DNA from: Prevotella sp. UBA4376
GTDB taxonomy: Bacteria > Bacteroidota > Bacteroidia > Bacteroidales > Bacteroidaceae
DNA: 20,415 bases
NCBI GenBank assembly: GCA_002391185.1
Contig: DGRY01000030.1
Location: 19,968 to 40,382 of the forward strand
Direction: 5' to 3'
The notes beneath the pieces were generated by a model. That model was not told the DNA's origin. It saw nothing but the letters and a program-made list of their open reading frames with translations, and searched no databases. The translations under genes were made by a program, and so were the position numbers. Numbering within the stretch: the stretch's first letter is position 1; each line of letters begins with the position of its first letter. Below are positions 1,609-18,478 of this stretch, in pieces.

Positions 1609-4017
1609 TTACATTCCGTCAGGACGGCTGTTAGCAGAACTGCCACTCATCTGTGGCATTCCGCTAAGAGCAATCCTTATCTGCATCAAAAGGTCGGCGT
1701 AGTGAGCACGAGTATCAGCATCAGCGGTACGAGCTTTCTGCAATCGACCTTTTATCATGTTCAAGCCAGCCAGAGCATAAGGTTTCTGCTCATCAACCAT
1801 ATTCACACGCCATGCCTTGGCTAAGTTTGCCACCACTTTGCGCTGAATATGCTTTGTCCACAGAGATGCTTTCTTTCCACTAACGGTAGAGCTGAACACA
1901 TAGTTAACCAAATCAGTAATATACTCCATTGGCTTGTAACCATCAGGCATATAGCTATGCTTGCTCACAAGGTTTATTGTCATGGCACTTGTCAACTTGT
2001 CAACAACATCATCGGCAATACCAAAGATAAGGTTCTCGGGCACACGGTTAAGGCGTCTTACATAAGGTTCGCTAACAAGCCATGTTGGCTCATTGAACAC
2101 ATTGGCATTTATCCATGCCAGAGCACGTTTCTGAGTAGCACGGCTAACAGGAGTATATACCACACCATCCTGCTCGGCACTCTTGAAATCGTGATAACAA
2201 CCGCTGATATTTGTAGCCACATGACGCATATAACGTCCCATCTGTGCAACAACATTCTTATAGGCAAACTTCAGTTGCACATCCATGTCGCCCTCCTTGT
2301 AGTTCCACTCAGGAATCTTCTTAACAATGCGCTTAAGGTTCTTAATACCATAATCGCTTGCCTTCATGGCATCATCGCCAAGGTCTTCGGTCTGCGCATG
2401 TGGGTCATTGTCTGAGCCTTCGCCACCAAACCAATAGCGTGGACTCTCCTTCAACTTGGCAATAGTCATCTTGTTTAATATCAGGCGTTCCTCCTCGGCA
2501 TCCTTAGCATCTGGGAAATAGCGATAGCCCCAGTTGATAGCCCACTTATCATAATCGTTGATGCGTGGGAAGATACCTTTTTCTGATATGTTATCTTCAG
2601 GCTGAGCAACATAGTTGAAACGAGCATAATCCATGATCGAAGCGGTGTGACCATGTTCTTCTACCCAAGCCTTGTCACGCAGTTTCTCAACAGGTGTAGC
2701 CGAGCTGGCACCCATGTTATGACGCAAGCCAAGAGTGTGTCCAATCTCATGTGAAGAAACAAAACGTATGAGCTGTCCCATCAGCTCGTCGTCGAACTCA
2801 GGTTTCTGCGCTCTCTTGTCAACACATCCTGCCTGCACCTGATACCAGCTGTGCAACAGCTGCATCACATTATGATACCAACCTACATGACTTTCAAGAA
2901 TCTCACCTGTTCGTGGGTCGCTACAATGAGGACCGTAGGCATTAGGAATGTCACTTGCAAGATAGCGGATAACAGAATAACGTGCATCCTCTAAGCTCAT
3001 GGTAGAATCGTTAGGCCAGTCTTTGGCAGCAATGGCGTTCTTAAAGCCAGCAGCCTCGAAAGCCACGTTCCAGTCCTCTACACCAGCTTTCAGATAAGGA
3101 CGCCATTTTGCAGGTGTTGCAGGGTCGATATAATAAACTATCTGCTTCACTGGTTCCACCAGTTCGCCTCGCTTATAAGCCTCTATATCCTTAGGTACAA
3201 GGCGGTAGCGTGTAACCACCTTCTTGCGTGTCACCTCTTGCTGGTTATCGCTGAACTCATTGAACTCCTCGGTAAAATATCCCACTCGTGGGTCGAAGGT
3301 TCTAAACTTCATTGGTTCTTTTGGCAACAGCACAAACGAAGTGTTCATCTTCAATGTCACATTACCTGTTGCCTGACCAGCAGGAAGTTTTGTCAATGCC
3401 TTGGAAGCAAATGTTCTCACCGTAACCACCTCGGTATTTATAGGAAAAGTGTGGATATAGTCGATATAAGACAGGTCTTTCTTGTAGTTGGCAATACCCA
3501 ATCTTGATTTCATGTTGCTGTTAATGGCAAACACATCAATATCAGAATTAAACAAGCCTGTTACCTCCACACTATAGAGCTTTGCACCAGTTGAATCGGT
3601 AACAGTAGAGTCTATCTTTGTGTTGAAAACAATAGGATCTTGTGTAGAGTTTTTCACAGCCAATGCAATAGCATCGGTAGAGTCTGTGCGAGTGTCGTAG
3701 AGATTAGCACACAGATACATCTGTTTGCCTCTTTTCTCCCAATATAGCACCTGACTGTTAGCGAGTTCACCTCCATAAACGCCTGCATCTACAGGAGTAG
3801 AAACGAAACGGGTGTTCACCATCAGCAGTCTGCCAAGCAAACTATCTGGTATCTGGAAATAATATTTATCCTTGTGAAACTGCACATTGAAAAGTCCGTT
3901 CTTAGCAGGTGTTCGCACCTCAGTTTTCACAGGACTTGCATTCTTCTTTTTCTTCTTTGCCTCAGCGGGAGCTGCCATCATAACGGCAGCAAGGGCAAGC
4001 ACAAAAAATTTCTTCAT
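1609..4017 (-). CDS. Secreted zinc-dependent metalloprotease (DUF5117/DUF5118 family)
   Basis: An 802-residue protein expected to be exported and to cut proteins or peptides outside the cytoplasm; its substrate is unknown. A signal peptide covers residues 1-20 (basic MKK, hydrophobic core, AEA cleavage site), followed by a lysine run at 21-25. The N-terminal ~40-270 region has the beta-rich character of the DUF5118/DUF5117 modules. The catalytic site is HEIGHTLGLRH at 423-433, with zinc ligands His423, His427 and His433 and catalytic Glu424. A Met-turn follows (SIMDYARFNY, Met462), so it is a metzincin-type enzyme. Length and layout look complete and the active site is intact. The start at 4017 is supported by the signal peptide directly after it. 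A weak TATCTTCG box (minus strand, 4049-4042) could be its -7 element. It converges on the surface-protein gene ending at 1188. Confidence 0.9.
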   Translation of the reverse strand: MKKFFVLALAAVMMAAPAEAKKKKKNASPVKTEVRTPAKNGLFNVQFHKDKYYFQIPDSLLGRLLMVNTRFVSTPVDAGVYGGELANSQVLYWEKRGKQMYLCANLYDTRTDSTDAIALAVKNSTQDPIVFNTKIDSTVTDSTGAKLYSVEVTGLFNSDIDVFAINSNMKSRLGIANYKKDLSYIDYIHTFPINTEVVTVRTFASKALTKLPAGQATGNVTLKMNTSFVLLPKEPMKFRTFDPRVGYFTEEFNEFSDNQQEVTRKKVVTRYRLVPKDIEAYKRGELVEPVKQIVYYIDPATPAKWRPYLKAGVEDWNVAFEAAGFKNAIAAKDWPNDSTMSLEDARYSVIRYLASDIPNAYGPHCSDPRTGEILESHVGWYHNVMQLLHSWYQVQAGCVDKRAQKPEFDDELMGQLIRFVSSHEIGHTLGLRHNMGASSATPVEKLRDKAWVEEHGHTASIMDYARFNYVAQPEDNISEKGIFPRINDYDKWAINWGYRYFPDAKDAEEERLILNKMTIAKLKESPRYWFGGEGSDNDPHAQTEDLGDDAMKASDYGIKNLKRIVKKIPEWNYKEGDMDVQLKFAYKNVVAQMGRYMRHVATNISGCYHDFKSAEQDGVVYTPVSRATQKRALAWINANVFNEPTWLVSEPYVRRLNRVPENLIFGIADDVVDKLTSAMTINLVSKHSYMPDGYKPMEYITDLVNYVFSSTVSGKKASLWTKHIQRKVVANLAKAWRVNMVDEQKPYALAGLNMIKGRLQKARTADADTRAHYADLLMQIRIALSGMPQMSGSSANSRPDGM

Positions 4018-4302
4018 GTTATTCTTTTTATTTTTCGTGCACGAAGATAATCAAAAGAATTGAAATAGAAAAACAATTCAGGGGGTTAATAACTAAACTT
4101 GTAACGTAATGAAGCTGGGGTGCTAGTTTGAATCACTAGTAAATCCTGTTTCAAAAAAAGAAAAACCATATTTACGATAAAATTAACGGCTAATTGGCGA
4201 TAATTAACGGAGAAAAAATGAGCATCAAATGGATAACCAGAAGTTGTTTTTAACATAAAACATAGTGAAAAAGAAATAAAAAGGAGTAAAAATGGCATAG
4301 GG

Positions 4303-4335
4303 TTTGCAGAGAATAAAAGAAATAAAGTATTTTTG
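4303..4335 (+). promoter_or_regulatory. Bacteroidota-type promoter for the Bax-inhibitor/DUF4923 operon
   Basis: TTTG (4303-4306), a 21-bp spacer, then TATTTTTG (4328-4335) followed by CA match the Bacteroidota -33/-7 consensus TTTG...TAnnTTTG exactly. Transcription would start near 4341, giving a leader of about 240 nt that contains the repeat element at 4404-4485. Confidence 0.65.
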
Positions 4336-4403
4336 CAAAGAAAGAAAGACCCCTCCCATGACGCTTCGCTATTGAACCAAAGGTCACTGACCATCGGGAA
4401 GTA

Positions 4404-4485
4404 ATATTGAATATTGAACATTGAAGATTGAAGATTAGTCGGCTACGCCGATATAATATTTCATTTTTTCCATTTTTCAATCTTT
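4404..4485. repeat. Heptamer array plus triloop palindrome plus complementary arm
   Basis: Five exact 7-nt units (ATATTGA, ATATTGA, ACATTGA, AGATTGA, AGATTAG) run 4404-4438. The palindrome TCGGC-TAC-GCCGA (4439-4451) follows directly. AAGATTGAA in the array (4424-4432) pairs with TTCAATCTT (4476-4484). The stretch 4456-4481 is almost identical to 6257-6283. Confidence 0.75.
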
Positions 4486-4584
4486 CCATATTATGATACG
4501 AAGCATGCATCGTACTAAATTGAGGTGAGGGTGCTTCTCATGTCTGCTAATGCAGAATACAAGAATAACATAAATTACAAAGAT

Positions 4585-5316
4585 ATGGATTTAAAAGATT
4601 TAGAAAAACAAGTTTATCAGCAGGACTTAGGCAATGGCTTTGCCTTGTCAGAGGCTTTTCCTGCTTTGATGCGCAAAGTGTATGTGTGGATGACAATGGC
4701 TTTAGCCATTAGTGGTGTAACAGCTTATGGAGTGGCAAGTTCTCCTAATCTGCTTTATCTTATTCTTAACAACAGAATTCTGTTCTTTGGAATAATCATT
4801 GCAGAGTTGGTATTGGTGTGGAAGATTTCATCAAGCGTATGGAAGCCTAACCGCTCACTCACCACAACAACATTGATGTTTATCATCTTCTCTATGCTTA
4901 ATGGTGCCACAATGTCGTATATCTTTGTGTTGTTTGCTCCAGAGGCTATCGTGAAGACTTTCTTCGTTACAGCTGGTACTTTTGGTGCAACAGCATTATA
5001 TGGCTACACCACAAAGAAAGACCTTGTTAGCTTTGGCAGTTTCTTTATGATGGGCCTTATTGGTCTTATCATCGCAGGTGCAGTAAACATCTTCCTACAG
5101 AGCAGTATGATGGATTTAATCATCAGTATTGCAGGTGTAGCGCTGTTCATTGGTCTTACAGCATGGGACAGTCAGCAGATAAAGAGACAGTTGGCTATGA
5201 TGCCTGATCTTAGCGAGGGCAGTCAAAAGGTTGCTCTGTCGGGTGCATTAAGTCTGTATCTCGACTTCATCAACCTTTTCATTTATTTATTGCGTATATT
5301 CGGAAGAGAAAGATAA
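4585..5316 (+). CDS. Bax inhibitor-1 / YccA-YetJ family membrane protein
   Basis: A 243-residue integral membrane protein of the TMBIM/BI-1 family; bacterial members such as B. subtilis YetJ are pH-sensitive calcium-leak channels. Seven hydrophobic segments are visible (about 31-51, 64-80, 93-117, 124-140, 150-171, 176-195, 221-239). The conserved aspartate pair is present: Asp195 in TAWDSQQ and Asp227 in LYLDFINLF, equivalent to the YetJ pH-sensing pair. I chose ATG 4585 because the family's N-terminus is short and the bases before it are A-rich, as usual in Bacteroidota. ATG 4540 would add 15 residues; the in-frame GTG 4525 is less likely. Its stop TAA overlaps the next gene's ATG by one base, so the two are translated as a unit. 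Transport function is inferred from the family. Confidence 0.9.
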   Translation: MDLKDLEKQVYQQDLGNGFALSEAFPALMRKVYVWMTMALAISGVTAYGVASSPNLLYLILNNRILFFGIIIAELVLVWKISSSVWKPNRSLTTTTLMFIIFSMLNGATMSYIFVLFAPEAIVKTFFVTAGTFGATALYGYTTKKDLVSFGSFFMMGLIGLIIAGAVNIFLQSSMMDLIISIAGVALFIGLTAWDSQQIKRQLAMMPDLSEGSQKVALSGALSLYLDFINLFIYLLRIFGRER

Positions 5317-5954
5317 TGAAGAAAATTAGTGTAGCTGCAGTTGCAGCAGTATTCGTATTGAGCAGTTGTGGTATCACAACAAACGGCACATCAGGTAATG
5401 ATGCCGCTAACGTACTGAATGGTGTGTTGGGGTCTATCTCAAACCCTAATAATATTGGTAACGTACTTTCAAGTGTATTAGGTATCGACAAACCATCGGT
5501 AAACGACATTTACGGCACATGGTATTATGCCACTCCTGGTGTGGCTTTCACAAGCGAGAACACACTGGCAAAGGCTGGTGGTGAGGTTGTGGCAAGTCAG
5601 ATAAAGGACAAGCTGGCAGGCTACTATAGTAGCGTAGGCCTCAAAAAGAGTAACACCATGTTCACCTTTAACAAGAACAACACTTTCTCAGGAAAGGTTG
5701 ACGGCAAGAGCGTAAGCGGTACATGGACCTATGATGCCAACAACCAGAAGATTACATTGAAAACCTTACTATTCACTATCCCAGTATATGCAAAGAAAAC
5801 AAGCAACGGCATGAGTTTCCTTATGGAATCAAAGAAGTTGCTCACCGTTCTGCAGACAGCAGCAGCCCTAACAGGAAACAGCAACCTACAGGCTATCGGT
5901 GAGTTAAGCAAGAACTACGATGGTGTGAGAATGGGATTCGACATGAAGAAATAA
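5316..5954 (+). CDS. DUF4923-type lipoprotein
   Basis: A 212-residue predicted lipoprotein. The N-terminus MKKISVAAVAAVFVLSSC is a lipoprotein signal with the lipid-bearing cysteine at 18. The mature part has DIYGTWYY near residue 65 and a second GTWTYD near 140, the short beta-strand motifs of a lipocalin-like barrel, with an acid/lysine-rich stretch between. This matches Bacteroidota DUF4923 proteins, whose function is not known. It probably faces the periplasm from the inner or outer membrane. The ATG shares its first base with the stop of the Bax-inhibitor gene, so expression is coupled. A strong terminator follows. Family call is fairly sure; no function can be given. Confidence 0.8.
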   Translation: MKKISVAAVAAVFVLSSCGITTNGTSGNDAANVLNGVLGSISNPNNIGNVLSSVLGIDKPSVNDIYGTWYYATPGVAFTSENTLAKAGGEVVASQIKDKLAGYYSSVGLKKSNTMFTFNKNNTFSGKVDGKSVSGTWTYDANNQKITLKTLLFTIPVYAKKTSNGMSFLMESKKLLTVLQTAAALTGNSNLQAIGELSKNYDGVRMGFDMKK

Positions 5955-5964
5955 TCTATCCCCG

Positions 5965-5983
5965 CTCCCCTTATGAAGGGGAG
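5965..5983. repeat. GC-rich hairpin CTCCCCTT-ATG-AAGGGGAG
   Basis: A perfect 8-bp stem with a 3-nt loop sits 10 nt after the DUF4923 stop. No T-run follows. It resembles the hairpin at 1200-1219 in composition and in its position just after a stop codon. Confidence 0.55.
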
Positions 5984-6004
5984 GCATGGAGGAGTTGAGA
6001 ACAA

Positions 6005-6046
6005 AAAAGTGATTGAACTTTCGAAAATAAAAGTTCAATCACTTTT
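6005..6046. terminator. Bidirectional intrinsic terminator
   Basis: AAAAGTGATTGAACTT (6005-6020) pairs perfectly with AAGTTCAATCACTTTT (6031-6046); one more T-A pair closes an 8-nt loop. An A-run precedes the stem and T-rich sequence follows, so it can end transcription from both the lipoprotein gene (plus) and the phosphatase gene (minus). Confidence 0.85.
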
Positions 6047-6050
6047 ATTT

Positions 6051-6261
6051 ATTATTACTCACTGAAGTTTCGTATGTTGAGTAGATATAGGAAGTTAAAT
6101 GGAGTTATGCCGCTTTCTGCGGCGGAGATAGAGGACAAGTGCTTGCTATTATCTCCTTCGCTTACACAGATGCACCAACTTCGTTGACGGCATCTGCTCA
6201 GTCAATGACCTTCGGTTGAAGATTGAAAATTAAGCGCAAAGCGCTTTAATACTTCCATATT
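6051..6261. repeat. Spacer of successive palindromes ending in a repeat shared with 4456-4481
   Basis: No gene is seen. Successive stems are GCCGC/GCGGC (6109-6123), GGAGATA/TATCTCC (6124-6130 and 6150-6156), and CAGATGC/GCATCTG (6167-6173 and 6190-6196) enclosing CAAC-TTC-GTTG. These are followed by a TTGAAGATTGAA arm and the triloop palindrome AAGCGC-AAA-GCGCTT (6232-6246). The right arm 6257-6283 nearly duplicates 4456-4481 and runs into the last codons of the phosphatase gene. Confidence 0.65.
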
Positions 6262-9123
6262 TCATTTTTTTCCATTTTTCAATATTAACTCTAATACTCC
6301 TCCTTGCTCTATCATCTCGTGAGTGATATAATTGTGTGGATAATCCTTTCCGTTGAAAGACACTTTCTTTTTCCCTGCATTTTCCTTTAAAGCATTCTCA
6401 ACTATGATGGTGAGATTACCAATGCGAATCTTATCGAAAGTTGGGATGCCCAACACATAACGGTCTGACGCAGGAGAAGGATAAAAGCCTAATGCTGAGA
6501 ACACATACCAGGCATCACTATCAGGGATACTGTTATTAATGAAATCAAGATTATCAACAGCCTTTTTCCAATTAGCAGAACGTTTAAGCAATAGCTGATA
6601 ATCGTTGTCCTTGCCTAATTTCTTAGCTACCTGAGCCAAACAATAGGCTGCCAAATCATTATCATAGTTACCCTTAGTATAAGGAACAGAGAGAATGCTC
6701 TTACGCATAGCTTCATAGGCTTTTTCGGTCTTGATGCTTCTAACACCCTTTAGTAAAGCATCAGCCAATACAATTGTGGCATAATGAGTATCAGACACAG
6801 AAGCCTCGTTGTTGCATGCAGGAAAATCAGGAATACTGCCACTCTGCTCATACATATCAACAAAATTCTGCATCATGGTACCATACTGTGGTTCGATAAT
6901 TAGATTCAATGGATTTTGTGCACGATAGGTATAAGGCAGAGGATAGTCCATATATGTGCGACGATAGATAGCCTTACCACCTATCTTTCCAAAGGAATAA
7001 ACCATTACACTATCTTCGTGAGCGAATGTAGGAAACCTACCGTCCTTATCGCTGAAGGCACGAGGAAGGAAACTGTTGCGATAGATTGCACTATAGAACT
7101 TATTGACAGCCTCGGCATCGCTACTTTCAACATCTATACGACTAAGACGACGAATCCACGACTCGGCAATGCGACAGCGAGTGTCGTAGAACTCCCAATG
7201 AGGAATTTCCTCCTGCATATTGTTCCAAGCACCCTTTAAATCAACAAAACTGGTAGATGCCTTCACTAACAGTTCTTCATTACGTGCAACATCAAAAGCA
7301 ACCCAAGCATACTGAACAGAGTCAACAGTATCAATGCCCCATGAAGAAATCTGATCCTGAAAGGCTACTATGAAATAGCCATTGATGCCAGCCTTCGCTC
7401 CCTGACCATTTAACTGACGATGAACAGGATTGCAGCCATAGACAATATTTCTAACGGTATCTACCTTTAACCATCCTTCATGTTGGTCGCTATTTGCCTG
7501 AACAACAAAATAGGCACGACCATCTTTCTGATATTTGAAACGGAAGAACGCACTATGACTCATACCTGTCATCTCAGCCTTTAGATGTTCATCAGGCAGA
7601 ACGACAGAATAGTAATCAGGATGTCCTTCCTCACCTTCATGAGAAAAACGAGAGGCACGAGCAGAAGGCAGTAGGCGCAAGCTATCCATCAAGGGCATAA
7701 GAGTGAAAGAACCGTAATCCTGAGCCTTCACTCCATTAAGCCAATGACTTGAGCGGAAACCTTGAAAGAGAGTATTGTCATATCTATAAGGTGATACTCC
7801 AAGGTGCTCCCCCTCTACATTCTGCGGTGTCCATGAATTCATACCGAAAGGTTCAAGAACAGCAGGAATATTCAGAGCTGTTGTGTCAGTAGGATTTATT
7901 GTGCTTATACGCTGAAGCAATCCCAGTTTCTCAGCTCTATTAATACGCTTACGCATATATTTCTTTAGCTGACTCCAAGTATAGAAACCATCCTTGTCAG
8001 ACTCACGGAAGAGTTTCACAGGCTGCTCATTATGCAGAATCTGAACAATAATATTCTTACCATTACTATAGAAAACTATCTGAAGATTGGCAGCCATAGG
8101 AATGGCCTTATCCATATCATCGAAACGCTCATCGCTAAGAGTGCTTAGTCCCATCAGCGAAAGCAGACGATAAAGACTGCTGTCGTGCCCGAAACGAAGA
8201 GTAGCACCATGACGGTTTTGTGATATGTATCTATCAGCCTCAGCCTCTATGTTTTTCCAAAGACTGATAGCAGAACGCTGAGGAACCCCATAGTTGTCGG
8301 GCGACTGACCATTGACTACCCACATACGTTCGTTGGCTTCCTCATAAAGAGTGCGCATCTCGTTGTCGGTGAAATAATCAAAGAGATTGACTTTTAGACT
8401 GGTATTTTGAATATCAGAAGCTATAACATAGAAGTCACGCATGAACTTTTCGGGATTGCTCACACGGGTGATAACCTTGAAAAACTGCGATGTGAAACGC
8501 TCTGCATCAATATCGCTATCGTAACGATAGTTCTTTATCAACCTTTCTTCCTCATCACTACTATATGCTATCCAGCACATATCAGTTTCATCTTTTCTCT
8601 CAGAAAGAGCCATGTGATTATCTGTATTGCGTGAGCGCAATACATTGAAGAAAGCCGACATGCTGTCATAACAACGAGGCATAGTACTACTAAAGCCCTC
8701 AACCTGAGCACCTGAAGCAAAAGCCTCAGGGAAAGCAGAAAGCATTCTGCAAGCAATACCTTCGTGCTGCGACATACCAAGAGGAGTGAGCATACCTATA
8801 TTTGTCTGAGCATCCTTCCACACCTTGTTCAATACTTTCTGCGCCTTTTTTCCCTGAACAGTAAGGTTTGACTTATCAGCAAACTGTGCAAGAACATCTT
8901 TATATTGACTCTCATTAGCCAACCAACGACTACCATGACGGGCATAATGAGAAATAAGAATTGGTTTGTAACCATCAGGAGCATCCACAGCCCCACTCCT
9001 CTTGGGTGCATGATAAACATAATAAACTCCTCCCATCTGCTCATTTGTTTTTTGAGCAGACAATGACATTGTACCGAATAGTGCCAATAATATAAAAATA
9101 AGTTTATGAGTTTGCGAGGTCAT
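6262..9123 (-). CDS. Secreted histidine phosphatase fused to a core-deleted GH92-like module
   Basis: A 953-residue exported protein with a signal peptide at 1-23 (ending SLSA-Q). Residues ~30-400 form a histidine acid phosphatase of the phytase/MINPP type: the catalytic RHGSR is at 62-66 and the partner HD at 313-314 in LRFGHDSS, so a phosphate-ester hydrolase is likely. Residues ~420-953 follow GH92 alpha-mannosidases: the N-terminal beta-sandwich (GSFTLMPL, RFSHEGE), the linker and first barrel helices (KFYSAIYRNSFLPRAFSDKDG, YDNDLAAYCLAQ), and the C-terminal AWYVFSALGFYP at 871-882. GH92 enzymes normally have well over 100 residues between the NWKK region (851) and AWYVFSALGFYP, including the NEPSHH acid and the D-rich base motif. 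Here only about 16 remain. WDT is also replaced by PYT near 730. Mannosidase activity is therefore doubtful; a binding or structural role is inference. Confidence 0.85.
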   Translation of the reverse strand: MTSQTHKLIFILLALFGTMSLSAQKTNEQMGGVYYVYHAPKRSGAVDAPDGYKPILISHYARHGSRWLANESQYKDVLAQFADKSNLTVQGKKAQKVLNKVWKDAQTNIGMLTPLGMSQHEGIACRMLSAFPEAFASGAQVEGFSSTMPRCYDSMSAFFNVLRSRNTDNHMALSERKDETDMCWIAYSSDEEERLIKNYRYDSDIDAERFTSQFFKVITRVSNPEKFMRDFYVIASDIQNTSLKVNLFDYFTDNEMRTLYEEANERMWVVNGQSPDNYGVPQRSAISLWKNIEAEADRYISQNRHGATLRFGHDSSLYRLLSLMGLSTLSDERFDDMDKAIPMAANLQIVFYSNGKNIIVQILHNEQPVKLFRESDKDGFYTWSQLKKYMRKRINRAEKLGLLQRISTINPTDTTALNIPAVLEPFGMNSWTPQNVEGEHLGVSPYRYDNTLFQGFRSSHWLNGVKAQDYGSFTLMPLMDSLRLLPSARASRFSHEGEEGHPDYYSVVLPDEHLKAEMTGMSHSAFFRFKYQKDGRAYFVVQANSDQHEGWLKVDTVRNIVYGCNPVHRQLNGQGAKAGINGYFIVAFQDQISSWGIDTVDSVQYAWVAFDVARNEELLVKASTSFVDLKGAWNNMQEEIPHWEFYDTRCRIAESWIRRLSRIDVESSDAEAVNKFYSAIYRNSFLPRAFSDKDGRFPTFAHEDSVMVYSFGKIGGKAIYRRTYMDYPLPYTYRAQNPLNLIIEPQYGTMMQNFVDMYEQSGSIPDFPACNNEASVSDTHYATIVLADALLKGVRSIKTEKAYEAMRKSILSVPYTKGNYDNDLAAYCLAQVAKKLGKDNDYQLLLKRSANWKKAVDNLDFINNSIPDSDAWYVFSALGFYPSPASDRYVLGIPTFDKIRIGNLTIIVENALKENAGKKKVSFNGKDYPHNYITHEMIEQGGVLELILKNGKK

Positions 9124-9421: not shown

Positions 9422-9895
9422 ATGAAGGTTAAGAATAGTAGAATGGAAGCTCTGAAGATGCTTATTTCAAGCATGGAATTAGGTTCACAAGAAGAAGTTC
9501 TTCAGGCGCTAAAAAAAGAGGGATTCAAACTTACTCAAGCTACTTTAAGTCGCGACTTAAAACAATTAAAGGTAGCCAAGGCTGCATCTATGAACGGCAA
9601 ATATGTATATGTATTGCCTAACGAGACTATGTATAAACGCATCCACAAGCCTCTGTCAGCAGTAGAGATGATGAACACTCCAGGATTTATCTCTATCAAT
9701 TTTTCGGGCAACATGGGCGTTATCAAGACCCGCCCAGGATACGCAAGCAGCATAGCATACAACATTGACAACAGCGACATTCCTGAAATATTGGGAACAA
9801 TAGCTGGTGACGATACAATATTCATAGTAGTAAAAGAAGGAGCAAATAAAAACAACATCATAGAAGGTCTCAACGGTATTATACCAAACATATAA
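9422..9895 (+). CDS. argR: Arginine repressor ArgR
   Basis: A 157-residue DNA-binding regulator of arginine genes; family members form hexamers with arginine bound between trimers. The N-terminal winged helix-turn-helix contains LTQATLSRDLKQLKVAK at 37-53, with the family's SRDL recognition motif. The C-terminal oligomerisation and arginine-binding domain contains GTIAGDDT at 125-132. Length is normal for the family. The ATG at 9422 follows a strong promoter and an ARG-box-like site at 9403-9416. It is the first gene of a plus-strand group; the acyltransferase gene begins 9 bp after its stop and argG after that, so repressor and biosynthetic enzymes are probably made from one transcript. Autoregulation is inferred from the operator position. 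Confidence 0.95.
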   Translation: MKVKNSRMEALKMLISSMELGSQEEVLQALKKEGFKLTQATLSRDLKQLKVAKAASMNGKYVYVLPNETMYKRIHKPLSAVEMMNTPGFISINFSGNMGVIKTRPGYASSIAYNIDNSDIPEILGTIAGDDTIFIVVKEGANKNNIIEGLNGIIPNI

Positions 9896-9904
9896 AAAAA
9901 AATA

Positions 9905-10504
9905 ATGGAAGAAATAAAGGTAATGGTTGCCGACGAATCACATATTAAATATGTCGAAACCATACTGCAGACTATTGCTGACGCTGCCAAGGTTCGTGGC
10001 ACTGGTATAGCTAAGCGTTCACCAGAATACGTCGCAACAAAGATGAGAGAAGCTAAAGCCGTCATTGCCCTGCAGGGTGAAAAATTTGCAGGCTTCAGCT
10101 ACATAGAAACATGGGGAAACAAGCATTACGTGACTACATCAGGACTTATTGTTCATCCTGATTTCAGAGGTCTCGGACTTGCCAAAAGAATAAAGAATGT
10201 GACATTCACATTAGCACGAAAGCGATGGCCTAATGCAAAGATATTCTCATTGACATCTGGTTCTGCCGTAATGAAGATGAACACCCAACTGGGTTATCAT
10301 CCCGTTACCTTTGCCGACCTCACCGATGACGAAAGTTTCTGGAAAGGATGTGAGGGATGTGTAAACCATGATGTATTGGCAAGAACAGGACAGAAATACT
10401 GTATCTGCACAGCAATGCTCTTTGACCCAGAAGAACATCTTCCTGCAAAACTTCCACAGGAGGTGCTTGACAGAATAAACAGAATAGACGGAAGCAATAA
10501 ATAA
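9905..10504 (+). CDS. GNAT acyltransferase, candidate glutamate N-acyltransferase of the arginine pathway
   Basis: A 199-residue GNAT-fold protein. The acyl-CoA binding motif A is VHPDFRGLGLAKRI at 83-96. Central strands FAGFSYIETW and YVTTSGLIVHP precede it. The C-terminal part has an unusual cysteine cluster: Cys149-x2-Cys152 in FWKGCEGC and Cys166-x-Cys168 in KYCICTAMLF, with His155 between, which could bind a metal. It sits between argR and argG, 9 bp after argR and 18 bp before argG. No other argA or argJ is in the window, and the transcarbamylase here is of the N-succinylornithine type. It may therefore transfer a succinyl (or acetyl) group from CoA to glutamate to start arginine synthesis. 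The GNAT fold is sure; the substrate is inference from context. Confidence 0.8.
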   Translation: MEEIKVMVADESHIKYVETILQTIADAAKVRGTGIAKRSPEYVATKMREAKAVIALQGEKFAGFSYIETWGNKHYVTTSGLIVHPDFRGLGLAKRIKNVTFTLARKRWPNAKIFSLTSGSAVMKMNTQLGYHPVTFADLTDDESFWKGCEGCVNHDVLARTGQKYCICTAMLFDPEEHLPAKLPQEVLDRINRIDGSNK

Positions 10505-10522
10505 AGCACAAAATAGATTATT

Positions 10523-11725
10523 ATGGCAAAGAAGAAAGTTGTCGTAGCCTTCTCAGGCGGTCTCGACACATCATACACAGTAATGAAGCTCGCCCAAGAT
10601 GGCTGGGATGTTTATGCTGCATGTGCCAACACTGGTGGATTCAGCGAAGAACAGCTAAAGAAAAACGAGGAGAATGCCTATAAATTGGGCGCAGTAGAGT
10701 ATGCTACTCTTGACGTTACTCAGGAATATTACGAGAAGAGTCTGAAATATATGATTTTCGGAAATGTACTGCGTAACAACTGCTACCCTATCTCTGTTAG
10801 TTCAGAGAGAATTTTCCAGGCTATAGCCATAGCACGATATGCAAACGAGATTGGTGCCGACGCTATCGCTCATGGCTCTACCGGAGCAGGCAACGACCAA
10901 ATTCGTTTTGATATGACATTCCTTGTTATGGCACCAGGAGTGGAAATTATCACCCTTACCCGTGACAAGGCACTATCACGTCAGGAAGAAGTGGACTACC
11001 TCAATGAGCACGGATTCTTTGCCGACTTTACTAAACTAAAATATTCATATAACGTTGGTATTTGGGGTACCAGCATTTGTGGTGGTGAGCTTCTTGACCC
11101 AACACAGGGATTGCCTGAGGAAGCCTATCTCAAACATGTCACAGCCAAGGAAAAAGAAGCTGAACTGAAGATCACCTTCAAGAATGGTGAGATCGACGCT
11201 GTTAATGGCGAACATTTTGACGATAAGATAAAGGCAATACAGAAGATTGAAGAGATTGGTGCCAGCTATGCTATCGGCAGAGACTGCAATGTTGGCGACA
11301 CCATTATTGGTATCAAGGGACGTGTTGGCTTCGAGGCTGCTGCTCCAAAACTGATTATTGAAGCACACAGATTGTTGGAAAAGAGCACTCTAAGCAAGTG
11401 GCAGCAGTATTGGAAAGACCAGTTGGGCAACTGGTATGGAATGTTCCTCCACGAGAGTCAGTATCTGGAGCCTGTTATGCCCGACATGGAAGCTTTCCTT
11501 ACAAGCAGCCAGCGTCACGTGAACGGAACAGCCATTCTAAAACTTCGTCCATACGGTTTCGAAACTATTGGTGTTGATTCTGACGAAGACCTCACCAAGA
11601 GCAAGCTCGGAGAATATGGCGAGATGAACCACGGATGGACAGCCGACGATGCCAAGGGTTTCATCAAGATAACATCTACTCCACTCCGTGTGTTCTACGG
11701 AATGCACCCAGAAGAGAAAAGATAA
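10523..11725 (+). CDS. argG: Argininosuccinate synthase
   Basis: A 400-residue cytoplasmic enzyme that joins citrulline and aspartate using ATP to give argininosuccinate, the next-to-last step to arginine. The ATP-pyrophosphatase loop SGGLDTS is at 11-17, and HGSTGAGNDQIRFD, the citrulline/aspartate-binding stretch, is near 117-130. Length is normal for bacterial ArgG and no key motif is missing. The ATG at 10523 is 18 bp after the acyltransferase stop, and the gene closes the argR operon. A 170-bp palindromic repeat element follows (11731-11900). ArgH, which acts next, is not in the window. Confidence 0.97.
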   Translation: MAKKKVVVAFSGGLDTSYTVMKLAQDGWDVYAACANTGGFSEEQLKKNEENAYKLGAVEYATLDVTQEYYEKSLKYMIFGNVLRNNCYPISVSSERIFQAIAIARYANEIGADAIAHGSTGAGNDQIRFDMTFLVMAPGVEIITLTRDKALSRQEEVDYLNEHGFFADFTKLKYSYNVGIWGTSICGGELLDPTQGLPEEAYLKHVTAKEKEAELKITFKNGEIDAVNGEHFDDKIKAIQKIEEIGASYAIGRDCNVGDTIIGIKGRVGFEAAAPKLIIEAHRLLEKSTLSKWQQYWKDQLGNWYGMFLHESQYLEPVMPDMEAFLTSSQRHVNGTAILKLRPYGFETIGVDSDEDLTKSKLGEYGEMNHGWTADDAKGFIKITSTPLRVFYGMHPEEKR

Positions 11726-11730
11726 AAAAG

Positions 11731-11900
11731 AATGTGGAATTAGGAATTAGGAATTTTGAATTGGTCGCACTCCGTGCGATGAAGAATTATTCAATGAACA
11801 ATTATTTAAGCGCTATGCGCTTCATTATTCATTATTCAATATTCACTATTCATTAGCAAAGCTCTGCTTTGCGCTAATTCAAAATTCAACACTCCACATT
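11731..11900. repeat. 170-bp composite element: terminal inverted repeats, two heptamer arrays, three triloop palindromes
   Basis: Ends AATGTGGA (11731-11738) and TCCACATT (11893-11900) are inverted repeats, and GAATTTTGAATT (11751-11762) pairs perfectly with AATTCAAAATTC (11876-11887). Inside are heptamers at 11736-11763 (GGAATTA-like, 4 units) and 11821-11855 (TTCATTA-like, 5 units). Palindromes are TCGCAC-TCC-GTGCGA (11765-11779), AAGCGC-TAT-GCGCTT (11808-11822) and GCAAAGC-TCT-GCTTTGC (11856-11872). It has no ORF of its own. Confidence 0.8.
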
Positions 11901-11983
11901 TAAGATATGCTTTTTCTTTGATGATGCAACTTTTCAATAATCCATTGCGTCTAACATACAAAGAAACTTTAAAGCATACTATT

Positions 11984-12184
11984 ATGTCAACAGGAAAAAG
12001 AATTTATCGTTCGGATGACCGCATCTTAGGTGGTGTATGTGCAGGACTTGCAGAATACTTTGAGTTTGATGCCACATGGGTACGCATATTATATGCCTTA
12101 CTCACTTTCTGCACTGCCTTTAGTGGATGTATTCTCTACATCATCATGTGGATTGTCATCCCCGACAAGAACAGACTTTTATGA
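11984..12184 (+). CDS. Small PspC-domain membrane protein
   Basis: A 66-residue protein that is essentially one PspC domain: KRIYRSDDRILGGVCAGLAEYF (4-25) followed by a hydrophobic hairpin (about 33-58) and a charged end. PspC domains are linked to envelope-stress signalling and membrane binding, but the role of such minimal forms in Bacteroidota is unclear. I chose ATG 11984 because the PspC motif begins right after it; the upstream in-frame ATGs at 11918-11924 would add a stretch unlike the family. The stop TGA overlaps the argC start (ATGA, 12181-12184), so translation of argC is probably coupled to it. Why it is tied to arginine synthesis is not evident. Confidence 0.88.
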   Translation: MSTGKRIYRSDDRILGGVCAGLAEYFEFDATWVRILYALLTFCTAFSGCILYIIMWIVIPDKNRLL

Positions 12185-13191
12185 TAAAGATAGGAATTCT
12201 CGGTGCAGCTGGTTATACAGGAGGTGAGCTTATACGTCTCTTGATTAACCATCCTGAAGCCGAAATAGTTTTCGCAAATAGCGAGAGTAATGCCGGCAAC
12301 CTTGTGGCTGATGTTCATGAGGGTTTGTTAGGCGAAACCCAACTAAAATTCACGGATCAGCTACCTTTCGACAAGGTAGATGTAGTTTTTTTCTGCTTCG
12401 GTCACGGCAAGAGCGAAGCATTCATGAAAGAACACGATATCCCTTCCAATGTTAAGATCATAGACTTAGCACAGGATTTCCGCCTGCATCCACAATCACT
12501 TCCAGATGCAAATGCAGTAGTACGTCCTACTGCCATCTGCCATGATTTTGTTTATGGTCTTCCAGAGATTAACCGAGATATTATTTCCCAAGCCAAACAT
12601 GTTGCCAACCCAGGTTGTTTTGCCACCTGCATACAGCTTGGACTTATGCCTGCGGCAGCCATGCACCTTATAAACAGTGATGTAGCTGTTAATGCCATTA
12701 CAGGCTCTACTGGTGCTGGTCAGAAACCAGGTGCCACAACACATTTTTCATGGCGCAACAACAACCTAAGTATCTATAAAGCATTCAAGCATCAGCATGT
12801 ACCAGAGATAAGAGAGAGTATCACTCAGGTGCAAGGTTATCTTGACGCAAGCATTGACTTTATTCCTTACCGAGGAGACTTCGCACGTGGTATTTTTGCT
12901 ACCGAAGTAATCAAGACAGACAAACCTCTTGAAGAGATTGTTGCAGGTTATAAGGAGTTCTACAAGGATGCAGTCTTTACACACTACAGCGACAAAGCAA
13001 TAGACTTGAAACAGGTGGTAAACACCAACAAAGCTATTGTTCATTGCGATAAGATTGATGACAAGTTGCTCATCACCTCTTGTATCGATAACCTGCTAAA
13101 GGGTGCTGTGGGACAGGCTGTACAAAACATGAACATCATGTTTGGAATTGACGAGACATCAGGGTTAAAACTTAAAGCAAGCGCATTTTAA
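12181..13191 (+). CDS. argC: N-acyl-gamma-glutamyl-phosphate reductase
   Basis: A 336-residue NADPH-dependent enzyme that reduces N-acylglutamyl phosphate to the semialdehyde, the third arginine step. The nucleotide-binding GAAGYTGGEL is at 8-17, the catalytic cysteine is Cys146 in NPGCFAT, and GSTGAGQKPG is at 175-184. The conserved HQH of the active site follows at 204-206. The real start is ATG 12181 overlapping the PspC stop; the open frame extends upstream to 12127 only because it reads through the PspC gene. argD begins 2 bp after its stop. With a succinyl-type ArgF' nearby, the substrate is probably the N-succinyl compound, which is inference. Confidence 0.96.
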   Translation: MIKIGILGAAGYTGGELIRLLINHPEAEIVFANSESNAGNLVADVHEGLLGETQLKFTDQLPFDKVDVVFFCFGHGKSEAFMKEHDIPSNVKIIDLAQDFRLHPQSLPDANAVVRPTAICHDFVYGLPEINRDIISQAKHVANPGCFATCIQLGLMPAAAMHLINSDVAVNAITGSTGAGQKPGATTHFSWRNNNLSIYKAFKHQHVPEIRESITQVQGYLDASIDFIPYRGDFARGIFATEVIKTDKPLEEIVAGYKEFYKDAVFTHYSDKAIDLKQVVNTNKAIVHCDKIDDKLLITSCIDNLLKGAVGQAVQNMNIMFGIDETSGLKLKASAF

Positions 13192-13193
13192 TT

Positions 13194-14336
13194 ATGAAAC
13201 TATTTGATGTATATCCACTTTTTGACATCAATATTGTCAAAGGTGAAGGAACAAAGGTTTGGGATGAAAAAGGACAGGAATATCTTGACCTTTACGGCGG
13301 TCATGCCGTTATCAGCATAGGTCATTGTCACCCACACTATACAGCAGCTATCACCAAGCAGCTCAATGCTCTTGGATTCTATAGTAACTCGGTAATCAAC
13401 AAATTGCAAGTGACACTTGCTGAACGTTTGGGAAAGATTAGTGGATACGACGACTACCAGTTCTTTCTTATCAATTCAGGAGCAGAGGCTAATGAGAATG
13501 CTCTGAAGTTGGCATCGTTTACTAATGGTCGCAAACGTGTACTGGCATTAGAAAAGTCGTTCCATGGTCGCACATCACTTGCTGTAGAGGTAACAAACAA
13601 TCCTAAGATTGTTGCACCTATCAACGATAATGGACATGTGACATTCTTGCCTATAAACAACCTTGAGGCTTGGGAAAAAGAACTTGCAAAAGGAGATGTG
13701 TGTGCCGTTATTCTGGAATGTATCCAGGGCGTTGGCGGATGCAATATGGTTACTAAGGAGTTTGCTCAGGGATTGGCAAAAGCCTGCAAGAAGTATGGAA
13801 CCATTCTTATATGCGACGAGATACAATGCGGCTATGGACGTACCGGTAAGTTTTTTGCGCATCAATGGCTCGACATCCGTCCCGACCTTATCACAGTAGC
13901 AAAGGGCATTGGAAATGGTTTCCCCATTGGAGGACTACTCATTTCACCAAACTTCACTCCTGTATATGGCAGATTAGGCACAACCTTCGGTGGAAACCAC
14001 CTTGCTTGTTCTGCAGCGCTGGCTGTTCTTGATGTCTTTGAGAACGAGGGGCTTGTTGAAAACGCACACCTCGTGGGCGAATATTTCATAGAACAACTCA
14101 AGGAACTGCAAAAAACAGAATCACATATCACAGATGTACGTGGCAAGGGCTTGATGATTGGTGTAGAGATGGACATTCCACAAAAGGATGTAAGACACAA
14201 ACTTATATATGATGAGCACGTGTTCACTGGCTGTGCTTCTACTAATATTCTAAGAATACTACCTCCACTCGTACTTACCAAAGACGATGTGGATGAGTTC
14301 ATGAAGAGATTCAAGAAGGTACTAAAAACTTTTTAA
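13194..14336 (+). CDS. argD: N-acylornithine aminotransferase
   Basis: A 380-residue PLP-dependent class III aminotransferase that converts N-acylglutamate semialdehyde to N-acylornithine with glutamate as amino donor. NSGAEANE at 94-101 binds the PLP phosphate. ILICDEIQCGYGRTG at 204-218 holds the Asp208 that contacts the pyridine nitrogen. Lys237 in TVAKGIGNGFPIG forms the Schiff base. TTFGGNHLAC (263-272) completes the site. Length is normal. It lies 2 bp after argC and 2 bp before proC, a tightly packed unit. Probably acts on the N-succinyl form (N-succinylornithine aminotransferase), inferred from the transcarbamylase type. Confidence 0.95.
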   Translation: MKLFDVYPLFDINIVKGEGTKVWDEKGQEYLDLYGGHAVISIGHCHPHYTAAITKQLNALGFYSNSVINKLQVTLAERLGKISGYDDYQFFLINSGAEANENALKLASFTNGRKRVLALEKSFHGRTSLAVEVTNNPKIVAPINDNGHVTFLPINNLEAWEKELAKGDVCAVILECIQGVGGCNMVTKEFAQGLAKACKKYGTILICDEIQCGYGRTGKFFAHQWLDIRPDLITVAKGIGNGFPIGGLLISPNFTPVYGRLGTTFGGNHLACSAALAVLDVFENEGLVENAHLVGEYFIEQLKELQKTESHITDVRGKGLMIGVEMDIPQKDVRHKLIYDEHVFTGCASTNILRILPPLVLTKDDVDEFMKRFKKVLKTF

Positions 14337-14338
14337 CT

Positions 14339-15124
14339 ATGAAGATTTCTATAATTGGAGCAGGTGCTATGGGAGGTGCTTTTGCAGAAGGACTGCTAAA
14401 AACGAGCACCTTTAAAGCAAACGACATTACCGTTGCCGACCCATACAAACCTACTCTTGACCACTTTAAAAAAGAAGGAGCTAACGTTACATCAAACAAT
14501 AGCTCTGCCGCAAAGAATGCAGATATTGTTGCCGTGGTAGTGAAACCATGGCTCGTAGAACAAGTCATTACCGAAATAAAAGATGAACTTGACTACAACA
14601 AACAACTGCTGATAGTTATTGCTGCTGGCATTTCGTCAGCAAGCATAAAGACATGGATGAATAAGGACGGAGCTACTCCGCACTTCTTCCTCACCATTCC
14701 TAATATTGCCATTTCAGAAAAGGCAAGTATGACATTCATTGTTCCTGTTGACGCCACAACTGAAGAAACACAAACCATAAGCAACATCTTCGATGAACTG
14801 GGGGGAAGCATTATTACCGAAGAAAAACTCCTTGGAGCAGGAACAACACTCGCTTCATGTGGCATTGCATACGCTATGCGCTATGTGCGTGCTGCAGCCG
14901 AAGGCGGTGTGGAACTCGGCTTTAAAGCCAAGGACGCAACAAAGATTGTGTTGCAGACCATGGAAGGAGCGGTAAAACTGCTACAAGCAACAGGCGAACA
15001 CCCTGAAGCGGCTATTGACAAGGTTACAACACCTGGGGGAGTAACCATCAAGGGACTAAATGCCATGGAACACTATGGCTTCAGCAATGCCGTTATAGAA
15101 GGGCTGAAAGCAGGCTGTAAATAA
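14339..15124 (+). CDS. proC: Pyrroline-5-carboxylate reductase
   Basis: A 261-residue NAD(P)H-dependent enzyme for the last step of proline synthesis. The Rossmann GAGAMGGAFAEG is at 7-18. The family signature TTPGGVTIKGLNAME lies at 230-244. Length is as expected. The start is 2 bp after the argD stop, so proline's last enzyme is co-transcribed with two arginine enzymes; both routes start from glutamate and pass through semialdehydes. A strong intrinsic terminator follows within 10 bp, so this gene ends the PspC-argC-argD-proC unit. proB and proA lie 2.6 kb further on. Confidence 0.96.
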   Translation: MKISIIGAGAMGGAFAEGLLKTSTFKANDITVADPYKPTLDHFKKEGANVTSNNSSAAKNADIVAVVVKPWLVEQVITEIKDELDYNKQLLIVIAAGISSASIKTWMNKDGATPHFFLTIPNIAISEKASMTFIVPVDATTEETQTISNIFDELGGSIITEEKLLGAGTTLASCGIAYAMRYVRAAAEGGVELGFKAKDATKIVLQTMEGAVKLLQATGEHPEAAIDKVTTPGGVTIKGLNAMEHYGFSNAVIEGLKAGCK

Positions 15125-15130
15125 GAGCAC

Positions 15131-15171
15131 AAAAGATACTGCACAAAGTTTCTTGTTTGTGCAGTATTTTT
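15131..15171 (+). terminator. Intrinsic terminator after proC
   Basis: ATACTGCACAAA (15136-15147) and TTTGTGCAGTAT (15156-15167) form a perfect 12-bp stem with an 8-nt loop, followed by TTTT and more T-rich sequence. An A-run before the stem extends pairing. It lies just after the proC stop and separates it from the XRE-cupin gene. Confidence 0.9.
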
Positions 15172-15204
15172 CATTTCTTTACACAAGTTTAAAGAAATAA
15201 ACAT

Positions 15205-15216
15205 TAGGTGTACCTA
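15205..15216. promoter_or_regulatory. Inverted repeat TAGGT-GT-ACCTA, candidate operator
   Basis: A 12-bp inverted repeat with perfect 5-bp arms sits where the -33 box of the next promoter should be, 18 bp before the -7 box at 15235. Its place fits a site where the XRE-cupin protein or another regulator controls the regulator-ligase operon. Confidence 0.4.
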
Positions 15217-15234
15217 TCTCTAAGAAAAAATTCA

Positions 15235-15242
15235 TACTTTTG
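15235..15242 (+). promoter_or_regulatory. -7 box TACTTTTG for the XRE-cupin operon
   Basis: An exact TAnnTTTG match lies 31 bp before the XRE-cupin ATG. No TTTG is found at the usual -33 distance; that space is taken by the inverted repeat at 15205-15216, so the promoter may need an activator. Confidence 0.6.
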
Positions 15243-15272
15243 TCCGAAATTAAATACTAAAGACGAATAAAC

Positions 15273-15827
15273 ATGGAAGAATCAATCAAACAAATCGGAG
15301 AACGATTAAAAGGACTCCGTGAGGTTCTCGACATACCAGCCGAAGAGATTGCTGAACTCTGTGGCATCACACTCGAGCACTACATGAAGATTGAAGCTGG
15401 CGAAGCTGACCCATCAGTATATCGCCTTAGCAAAATATCTAAGAGATATGGTATTGACCTTGATGTGCTTCTCTTTGGAGAGGAGCCTCGTATGAGTACA
15501 TATTATCTCACCCGAAAGGGAAAAGGACAGGAAATAGACCGTAACGATGATTATAAATATCAAAGTCTGGCTGCAGGATTCCGTGGCAGAAAGATGGACC
15601 CTTTCTTTGTTCAGGTTGACCCCCTTCCAGGTAACACCAATCACAACCAAAACCACCACGATGGTCAAGAGTTTGACTATATCCTCAAGGGTAGTCTTGA
15701 GCTTACCATTGATGACAAGGTACTGGTGTTGAATCCTGGCGACAGCATTCACTTTGATGGTTCACGTCCGCATTGCATGCGAGCGCTCAATGATGAACCA
15801 GTAAATTTCATTTGCGTAATCATTTAA
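15273..15827 (+). CDS. XRE-family regulator with cupin sensor domain
   Basis: A 184-residue protein with an N-terminal helix-turn-helix of the XRE/HTH_3 type (about 7-68: IGERLKGLREVLDIPAEEIA, then GITLEHYMKIEAGEADPS) and a C-terminal cupin barrel (about 112-182). The cupin motifs are NHHDGQEFDYILKGSLEL (127-144) and PGDSIHFDGSRPHCMRAL (155-172). His128, His129, Glu133 and His167 are candidate metal ligands. Such proteins sense a small molecule in the cupin and control a neighbouring gene. The acyl-CoA ligase gene begins 15 bp downstream, so the ligand may be its acid substrate or acyl-CoA product; this is inference. Its own promoter (15235-15242) and the upstream inverted repeat suggest autoregulation. 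Confidence 0.9.
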   Translation: MEESIKQIGERLKGLREVLDIPAEEIAELCGITLEHYMKIEAGEADPSVYRLSKISKRYGIDLDVLLFGEEPRMSTYYLTRKGKGQEIDRNDDYKYQSLAAGFRGRKMDPFFVQVDPLPGNTNHNQNHHDGQEFDYILKGSLELTIDDKVLVLNPGDSIHFDGSRPHCMRALNDEPVNFICVII

Positions 15828-15842
15828 AAAGAGATAATAACA

Positions 15843-17519
15843 ATGATCGAGAGATTTCTTAAGCAGACTCAATTCTCTTCAGAGGAAGACTTCAAAAAGA
15901 ACCTGCAATTCATTATTCCTGAGAATTTCAATTTTGCCTACGATGTCATGGACGAATGGGCACGCATAGAACCAAACAAGGTATGCTTGTTGTGGACCAG
16001 CGAACGTGGCGAAGAGGTAAAGACAACATACAAGCAATTCAAGGAGCAAACAGACCAGACCGCTTCTTACTTCCAGACTTTAGGTATTGGGCGTGGAGAC
16101 AAGGTGATGCTTATCCTTAAACGACACTATCAATGGTGGTTGAGCATGATGGCATTATGCAAGATTGGTGCTATAGCTATTCCTGCCACACACATGCTCA
16201 CAAAGCATGACATCGTTTACCGCAACAATCGTGCAAGCGTAAAAGCAATAATCTGCGTAAACGACGAATATGTTACCACTCAAGTGAAGGAAGCGATGCC
16301 CGAAAGTCCTACAGTGAAAAAACTTGTTGCTGTAAACTCCATGATTGAAGGTGAGAAGGCTGTTCCAGAAGGCTTTCACAACTGGCACGAAGAATGGGCA
16401 CAAGCTCCACATTTCCGTCGTCCAGAAAATGTCAATGAGAACGACGACACCATGTTGATGTATTTCACCAGCGGAACAAGTGGTGAACCAAAGATGGTTG
16501 CTCATGACCACTTGTATGCTTTAGGTCACCTCACGACAGGTGTTTTCTGGCATAACCTCAATGAAAATAGTCTGCACCTTACCGTTGCTGATACAGGTTG
16601 GGGTAAGGCAGTATGGGGCAAACTCTATGGTCAATGGTTTGCAGGCGCTACAGTATTTGTTTATGATCACGAGAAGTTCACAGCTGAAAAGATTATGCGT
16701 GCTATGGAGAAGTATCATGTTACTTCGTTCTGTGCACCACCTACCATTTATCGTTTTATGATATTGGAAGACTTCAGCAAATACGATCTGAGCAGTCTAA
16801 AGTATTGCACAACAGCAGGCGAAGCAATGAACCCATCTGTTGAGGATACATTCTTCAAACTCACAAACATACATATCATGGAGGGGTTCGGACAGACTGA
16901 AACAACAATGACCTTAGGCACCTTCCCTTGGATAAAGCCCAAACCAGGAAGTATGGGCAAACCAAATCCACAGTATGATGTATGTATTCTGCGTGAAGAC
17001 GGAACAGCTTGTGAGGATGGAGAGAAAGGTGAGATATGTATCAAAACCATTAACGGCAAACCATACGGCTTGTTCAAAGGTTATTATCGTGATGATGAAA
17101 AGACACATGAAGTGTGGCACGATGGCATTTATCACACAGGTGATATGGCATGGCGCGATGAAGATGGCTACTACTGGTTTGTTGGTCGTACAGATGATGT
17201 TATCAAGAGTTCTGGCTACCGCATTGGTCCATTCGAGGTTGAAAATGCTCTTATGACTCATCCTGCCGTTGTGGAATGTGCCATTACTGGTGTCCCCGAC
17301 CCTATCCGTGGAATGGTTGTAAAGGCAACAGTAGTATTGTCGAAAGACTATAAGGCTAAAGCAGGAGACGAACTCATAAAGGAGTTGCAGAATCATGTGA
17401 AGCATGAAACTGCTCCTTATAAGTATCCTCGTGTCATTGAGTTTGTTGATGAACTGCCAAAGACCATCTCAGGAAAGATTCGTCGTGTAGAAATACGCGA
17501 TAATGATTCAAAGAAGTAA
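15843..17519 (+). CDS. AMP-forming acyl-CoA ligase (short/medium-chain, ACSM-like)
   Basis: A 558-residue adenylate-forming enzyme that activates a carboxylic acid with ATP and CoA. All core motifs are present: P-loop FTSGTSGEPK (208-217), the acyl-pocket region ADTGWGKAVWGKLYGQW (249-265), TTAGEAMNP (323-331), GFGQTETT (348-355), YHTGD (430-434), the hinge GRTDDVIKSSGYRIGP (448-463), and the catalytic lysine Lys545 in KTISGKIRR. The pattern is nearer to medium-chain acyl-CoA ligases (ACSM type) than to classical acetyl-CoA synthetase, which is about 100 residues longer. It probably acts on acetate or short, branched or medium-chain fatty acids, though the exact acid cannot be read from sequence. 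It follows the XRE-cupin gene by 15 bp and is probably controlled by it. It has no clear terminator. Confidence 0.9.
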   Translation: MIERFLKQTQFSSEEDFKKNLQFIIPENFNFAYDVMDEWARIEPNKVCLLWTSERGEEVKTTYKQFKEQTDQTASYFQTLGIGRGDKVMLILKRHYQWWLSMMALCKIGAIAIPATHMLTKHDIVYRNNRASVKAIICVNDEYVTTQVKEAMPESPTVKKLVAVNSMIEGEKAVPEGFHNWHEEWAQAPHFRRPENVNENDDTMLMYFTSGTSGEPKMVAHDHLYALGHLTTGVFWHNLNENSLHLTVADTGWGKAVWGKLYGQWFAGATVFVYDHEKFTAEKIMRAMEKYHVTSFCAPPTIYRFMILEDFSKYDLSSLKYCTTAGEAMNPSVEDTFFKLTNIHIMEGFGQTETTMTLGTFPWIKPKPGSMGKPNPQYDVCILREDGTACEDGEKGEICIKTINGKPYGLFKGYYRDDEKTHEVWHDGIYHTGDMAWRDEDGYYWFVGRTDDVIKSSGYRIGPFEVENALMTHPAVVECAITGVPDPIRGMVVKATVVLSKDYKAKAGDELIKELQNHVKHETAPYKYPRVIEFVDELPKTISGKIRRVEIRDNDSKK

Positions 17520-17530
17520 ATTTGAGTCAG

Positions 17531-17667: not shown

Positions 17668-17691
17668 AGCCCTAACATTTAAATAGAGACG

Positions 17692-18462: not shown

Positions 18463-18478
18463 TAAAAGATAAAAAACT

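Follow-up and report, generated by a model that had tools for sequence, protein, structure and literature searches.

A histidine phosphatase of Prevotella fused to a GH92 module without its catalytic core

The 20,415-nucleotide stretch of Prevotella sp. UBA4376 analysed here (GenBank assembly GCA_002391185.1, contig DGRY01000030.1, positions 19,968 to 40,382; hereafter the window) encodes on its minus strand a protein of 953 residues that joins a histidine phosphatase to a GH92 glycosidase module. The phosphatase half has kept its catalytic residues, and the GH92 half has lost its general acid and general base. These losses are real and common to a clade of related proteins, and the GH92 remnant is under purifying selection. 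We consider it somewhat better than an even bet that a bifunctional enzyme has here become a phosphatase whose pseudo-GH92 serves mainly as a structural scaffold.

Deletions in the GH92 half and state of the phosphatase

Losses were counted against P0006, a phosphatase-GH92 fusion with an intact GH92 (Table 1). By this count the GH92 half of the window protein is without 189 residues in five blocks of 15, 38, 17, 103 and 16, the last of them at the C-terminus; the gaps of 17 and 103 residues sit after residues 857 and 862. P0006 has 11 residues inserted in the largest block that other intact fusions do not share, so the loss compared with most relatives is more fairly put at about 178 residues, with a largest region of about 109. 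The first-pass annotation had described a single loss of the catalytic core. That acid and base are gone around residues 857-863 stands, yet the extent was understated and three further losses had been missed (38 residues after 826, 15 after 417 and 16 at the C-terminus). The exchange of WDT for PYT, which it had also reported, was confirmed by the alignment to P0006, and the alignment added SDTHYA in place of MIGDHC and GVKAQ in place of GGCTQ. We take WDT, MIGDHC, GGCTQ, HGNEP and SRTLEYAYDD to be active-site motifs of GH92.

Conserved columns were defined by a conservation of at least 95% among 63 intact sequences and were scored in four proteins with the gutted, i.e. core-less, GH92. In the phosphatase 68 of 81 such columns are kept by all four, with 9 changed, 4 mixed and none deleted. 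The linker and the N-terminal GH92 domain (GH92N) keep 52 of 83 (12 changed, 15 mixed, 4 deleted) and the C-terminal part of GH92 keeps 51 of 150 (27 changed, 8 mixed, 64 deleted).

The GH92 mannosidase BT3990 uses Glu533 as general acid and Asp644 as general base according to the published account (PMC10167667). Alignment to the Protein Data Bank (PDB) chain, whose numbering is offset by +19 at both sites, equates these residues with the E of TEG and the second D of GNDD in P0006. The TEG block is deleted in the window protein, the GNDDAG base motif lies opposite a gap and NNSIP, and the Asp644 column reads S, S, S and N in the four gutted sequences. The first-pass annotation had asked whether acid and base might be supplied elsewhere in the chain; no other segment lines up with either of them in the sequence alignment, a result not checked on coordinates, and this candidate was rejected. 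Because acid, base, HGNEP and SRTLEYAYDD are deleted and WDT, MIGDHC and GGCTQ are altered, the ancestral GH92 sugar pocket is, judged from sequence, largely gone.

Table 1. Features of the phosphatase-pseudo-GH92 gene; coordinates refer to the window, residue numbers to the protein
Feature	Coordinates	Strand	Basis
Phosphatase + pseudo-GH92 gene	6262..9123	minus	uninterrupted open reading frame, 953 aa + stop
Signal peptide-like N-terminus, residues 1-24	9052..9123	minus	translation judged by eye; no lipobox Cys seen
Histidine phosphatase domain of HD type and MINPP fold, residues 25-405	7909..9051	minus	
GH92 N-terminal beta-sandwich domain, residues 416-625	7249..7878	minus	Pfam PF17678, E 6.9e-35
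GH92 (alpha/alpha)6 barrel remnant and C-terminal part, residues 632-953	6265..7230	minus	PF07971 in three stretches + predicted model
RHGSR nucleophile motif, residues 62-66	8926..8940	minus	R62, H63, R66 identical in 67/67 aligned sequences
HD proton-donor motif, residues 313-314	8182..8187	minus	identical in 67/67 aligned sequences
Loss 1: 15 residues between 417 and 418, domain junction, incl. HGQ of HGQT	7870..7875	minus	alignment
Loss 2: 38 residues between 826 and 827, SRTLEYAYDD region	6643..6648	minus	alignment
Loss 3: 17+103 residues around 857-863 vs P0006 (TEG acid, HGNEP, base motif)	6535..6555	minus	alignment
PYT (730-732) where intact GH92 has WDT	6928..6936	minus	alignment
SDTHYA (777-782) where intact GH92 has MIGDHC	6778..6795	minus	alignment

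As stated in the first-pass annotation, the phosphatase site is complete and the reading frame intact. Besides the residues of the two motifs in Table 1, R150 is invariant in the 67 aligned sequences. Thus RHGxR and the second catalytic motif of the histidine phosphatase branch 2/MINPP-like group are both present, and the protein has the fold of that group. The full form RHGxRxP is matched inexactly (RHGSRWL), and the HAE proton-donor tripeptide of HAE-type MINPP is not present, residues 313-315 being HDS. The window phosphatase is of HD type and MINPP-like, with inositol phosphates or sugar phosphates as its probable substrates. The same genome holds a second His_Phos_2 gene (L070, C142:12670-13464) with an open frame of 434 aa, possibly a stand-alone MINPP.

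Profile searches reflect the same layout. Pfam placed His_Phos_2 at 61-365 and GH92N over the domain given in Table 1, and split GH92 in three with the best stretch at 632-814; in a genome-wide profile scan positions 2-172, 208-242 and 378-463 of the GH92 profile were matched in a single frame and the remainder was missing.

Relatives and ancestry of the fusion

In a protein search with the window protein, 1,317 of the candidates scored were relatives, and 120 of these were listed. The RHGxR and HD patterns occur in all 120, the GH92 acid and base patterns together in 117; P0056 is without the WDT pattern only. The three listed relatives that lack acid and base are those nearest to the window protein, i.e. 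the clusters P0001 (98% identity, 245 sequences), P0002 (90%, 54 sequences) and P0003 (77%, 2 sequences). The intact fusions among the listed relatives are about 1,060-1,210 aa long and come, where an organism is stated, from Prevotella. A gutted gene of 950 aa was also present in a metagenome-assembled genome (MAG) of a sheep Prevotella (L054), with neighbours on both sides that match those of the window gene. Fusions whose GH92 is intact occur widely in Prevotella/Segatella, so the fusion is older than the gutting, and the gutting is clade-specific. The search for the same layout proposed in the first-pass annotation did find it, in P0001-P0003 and L054, but the fusion as such is no peculiarity of these proteins.

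In a sample of the genus 78 of 398 genomes matched at E<=1e-100, some of them partially; only the window's own genome spans the full query, and the other 77 best matches all end at or before query residue 833. A scan of named genomes yielded 16 loci. PF07971 matched in 32 of 60 related genomes, and with short single-piece matches set aside the window gene alone joined N- and C-terminal pieces in a single open frame without the core. One fusion (L024 and L028, genome G025) is split, with one part reading through a TGA, and is a broken or mis-assembled copy.

For a wider test for core-less GH92, residues 790-953 served as query; 120 of 575 matches were listed, 110 of them new proteins. The base-motif pattern was found in 102 of these 110, P0228 had the acid pattern but not the base pattern, and in the seven with neither pattern the core was present with variant motifs when read by eye. 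The acid pattern proved too narrow for the wider GH92 family and missed many proteins with the base motif. The test therefore rests on the base motif and leaves room for other deletions.

Structure, selection and role of the remnant

The predicted model of the window protein is confident and shows a GH92 fold from which several barrel helices are missing. Profile scores above cut-off and the fold of the retained parts identify the module as a relative of GH92 in sequence and in structure. The (alpha/alpha)6 barrel is incomplete, the stretch with the helices at 945-1015 of the intact model being deleted. The retained parts superpose on the BT3990-type GH92 (PDB 2wvx) over 528 residues with 2.4 A. 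The structure alignments took in 67 and 62 of 121 sequences. The GH92 fold is thus predicted to be retained in the remnant.

Selection was assessed by the ratio of nonsynonymous to synonymous substitution rates (dN/dS) between the window gene and L054. It was 0.128 for the whole gene, 0.120 for the phosphatase and 0.130 for the GH92 part (416-950), with 0.096 in GH92N, 0.131 in 631-815 and 0.091 in the scar at 816-870. No frame break occurs in either gene. P0003 is 79% identical to the window protein over the phosphatase, 83% identical over GH92N and 81% identical over 631-815. The claim of the first-pass annotation that this is not fresh decay therefore held, and a fresh pseudogene was rejected on the open frames and a dN/dS of 0.12-0.13. 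In a tree of 23 sequences the ratio of GH92 to phosphatase branch length was 0.82 on the stem of the gutted clade versus 0.76 for the background total; the tree was restricted to columns still present in the gutted clade, a choice that biases it towards slow columns, and branch ratios scatter from 0 to about 4. As a control, 49 intact fusion open reading frames gave 143 pairs at 75-97% identity, which are not independent, as several loci look like one genome present in two collections. In the 25 most similar of the 143 pairs dN/dS was 0.059-0.246 for the phosphatase and 0.037-0.132 for GH92.

According to the reading that we favour, the starting point would have been a Prevotella/Segatella enzyme with both phosphatase and mannosidase function. 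Several in-frame deletions in the common ancestor of one clade would have removed acid, base and neighbouring barrel helices, and with them the mannosidase function. The beta-sandwich and the truncated barrel presumably pack against the phosphatase and would stabilise it, and the GH92 shell would have been retained since the phosphatase depends on it. We infer the phosphatase activity and its substrate, the scaffold role and the absence of mannosidase activity alike.

Several observations weigh against the scaffold reading. The C-terminus (871-950) had a dN/dS of 0.556, albeit on 4.5 synonymous differences, and identity to P0003 is lower at the scar (64%) and the C-terminus (61%). Among the 25 most similar of the 143 control pairs GH92 lies below the phosphatase in dN/dS in all but L046/L048, whereas in the gutted pair it lies slightly above, and the remnant's 0.130 is at the top of the range of intact controls; constraint on the remnant is perhaps somewhat relaxed compared with a working GH92. 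All dN/dS values of the gutted form come from the single pair of the window gene and L054, in which intragenic recombination is likely. The input alignment of the model consisted mostly of intact homologues, which may bias it to their fold, and the predicted local confidence (pLDDT) is below 50 at residues 858-867. Finally, because 9 of 81 near-invariant phosphatase columns are altered in the gutted clade and only one phosphatase branch of the tree is longer than its stem, phosphatase function may have shifted as well.

The divergence between the window gene and L054 is itself a mosaic. Synonymous divergence (dS) is below 0.1 at residues 1-150, about 0.5-1.6 across 151-700 with one block saturated, 0 at 701-750, 0.17 at 751-800, 0.87 at 801-850 and about 0.1 at 851-950. 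By eye, P0002 resembles the window protein at its ends and L054 in the middle. The pattern points to allelic recombination or to chimeric assemblies.

Among the alternatives, the remnant might be a glycan- or surface-binding module that takes the phosphatase to phosphorylated glycans, as the first-pass annotation had proposed beside a structural role. Purifying selection on the remnant fits this, and so does the pairing of both activities in the intact ancestor, together with the second GH92 gene that intact fusions often adjoin. Against it stand the deletion or alteration of all the motifs listed above and a contig on which the window gene has no other GH92 for company. For glycan targeting the binding surface would have to be new or much changed, and a structural role has at least the same likelihood; we rate the binding module as possible but rather unlikely. 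Similarly doubtful is a non-catalytic regulatory or substrate-presenting GH92 that alters which phosphorylated molecules the phosphatase reaches. Slow decay, with the GH92 part as dispensable baggage, would account for the 180-190 or so residues already gone, for the faster divergence of scar and C-terminus and for a remnant dN/dS slightly above that of the phosphatase, unlike nearly all of the 25 most similar intact pairs. It is improbable given a dN/dS of about 0.1 over most of the remnant, unbroken frames in the window and L054, and a remnant kept in relatives down to 77% identity. A new catalytic activity built from re-purposed residues is very improbable: D868, D870 and others are new and common to all four gutted sequences in the alignment, but no site can be assigned and the modelled barrel lacks a part. 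An assembly or sequencing artefact, conceivable in a draft of 204 contigs that is 71% complete, was rejected with next to no residual doubt, as identical deletions recur in three protein clusters and in the separate sheep MAG at the same locus.

Locus and comparison with known systems

The phosphatase-pseudo-GH92 protein is probably secreted. A BaxI gene lies near the window gene and in the fetched flank of four of the 13 named fusion records L055-L067 (L058, L060, L063 and L066), in L066 besides DUF4923; it was not found in the other nine, some of which have short flanks. Some of the relatives therefore probably share a common locus. The fusion of Segatella paludivivens (L058) is surrounded by a second GH92, a GH28, a SusD-like protein and a GH97. 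Directly upstream of the intact fusion, L058 (at 3345-5912) and L063 (at 4201-6771) each encode a second GH92-type protein of about 855 aa, called by Pfam in L058 and by its similar N-terminus in L063. With PF07971, six of seven fusion genomes (G009, G013, G020, G024, G025 and G031; exception G006) had a second GH92 within about 5 kb on the same contig. The genome-wide profile scan found no other GH92 on the window's contig. Because three complete GH92 genes are present elsewhere in this genome, its mannosidase capacity need not be lost.

Of the other genes in the window, those at 9422-19726 form an arginine/proline biosynthesis run, named from reading the sequences as argR, GNAT, argG, argC, argD, proC, then proB and proA. 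Its GNAT acetyltransferase, which follows argR and precedes argG, might be an acetylglutamate-type enzyme of an unusual kind. A large DUF5117/DUF4953 met-zincin protein is encoded at 1609-4017 on the minus strand.

The gene offers a clear natural case in which deletions have killed one half of a bifunctional enzyme, with most of its shell under selection and intact relatives at hand for comparison. It is also a hazard for annotation: the protein passes the cut-off of NCBIfam TIGR01180 (GH92 family glycosyl hydrolase) with 254.1 versus 249.55 bits, so surveys of carbohydrate-active enzymes may include it among the GH92 glycosidases despite its absent catalytic core. A literature search found nothing on a phosphatase-GH92 fusion, although most subscription papers were outside its coverage and absence is thus unproven.

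The closest known systems are the intact Prevotella/Segatella fusions (P0004, P0006, L058), which have the same two domains in the same order and identical phosphatase catalytic residues, but unlike the window protein keep GH92 acid, base and barrel. The BT3990-type GH92 mannosidases match the window protein in the fold of the retained parts, yet it has no counterparts of Glu533 and Asp644 and lacks several barrel helices. BtMINPP of Bacteroides thetaiotaomicron (PDB 4fdt) has HAE as proton donor according to published reports (PMC3969271; PMC12580751), where the window protein has HD. The MINPP of Prevotella sp. CAG:617 (PDB 7r5y) shares the HD proton donor; its crystallised chain of 416 aa is a phosphatase alone, in contrast to the fusion described here.
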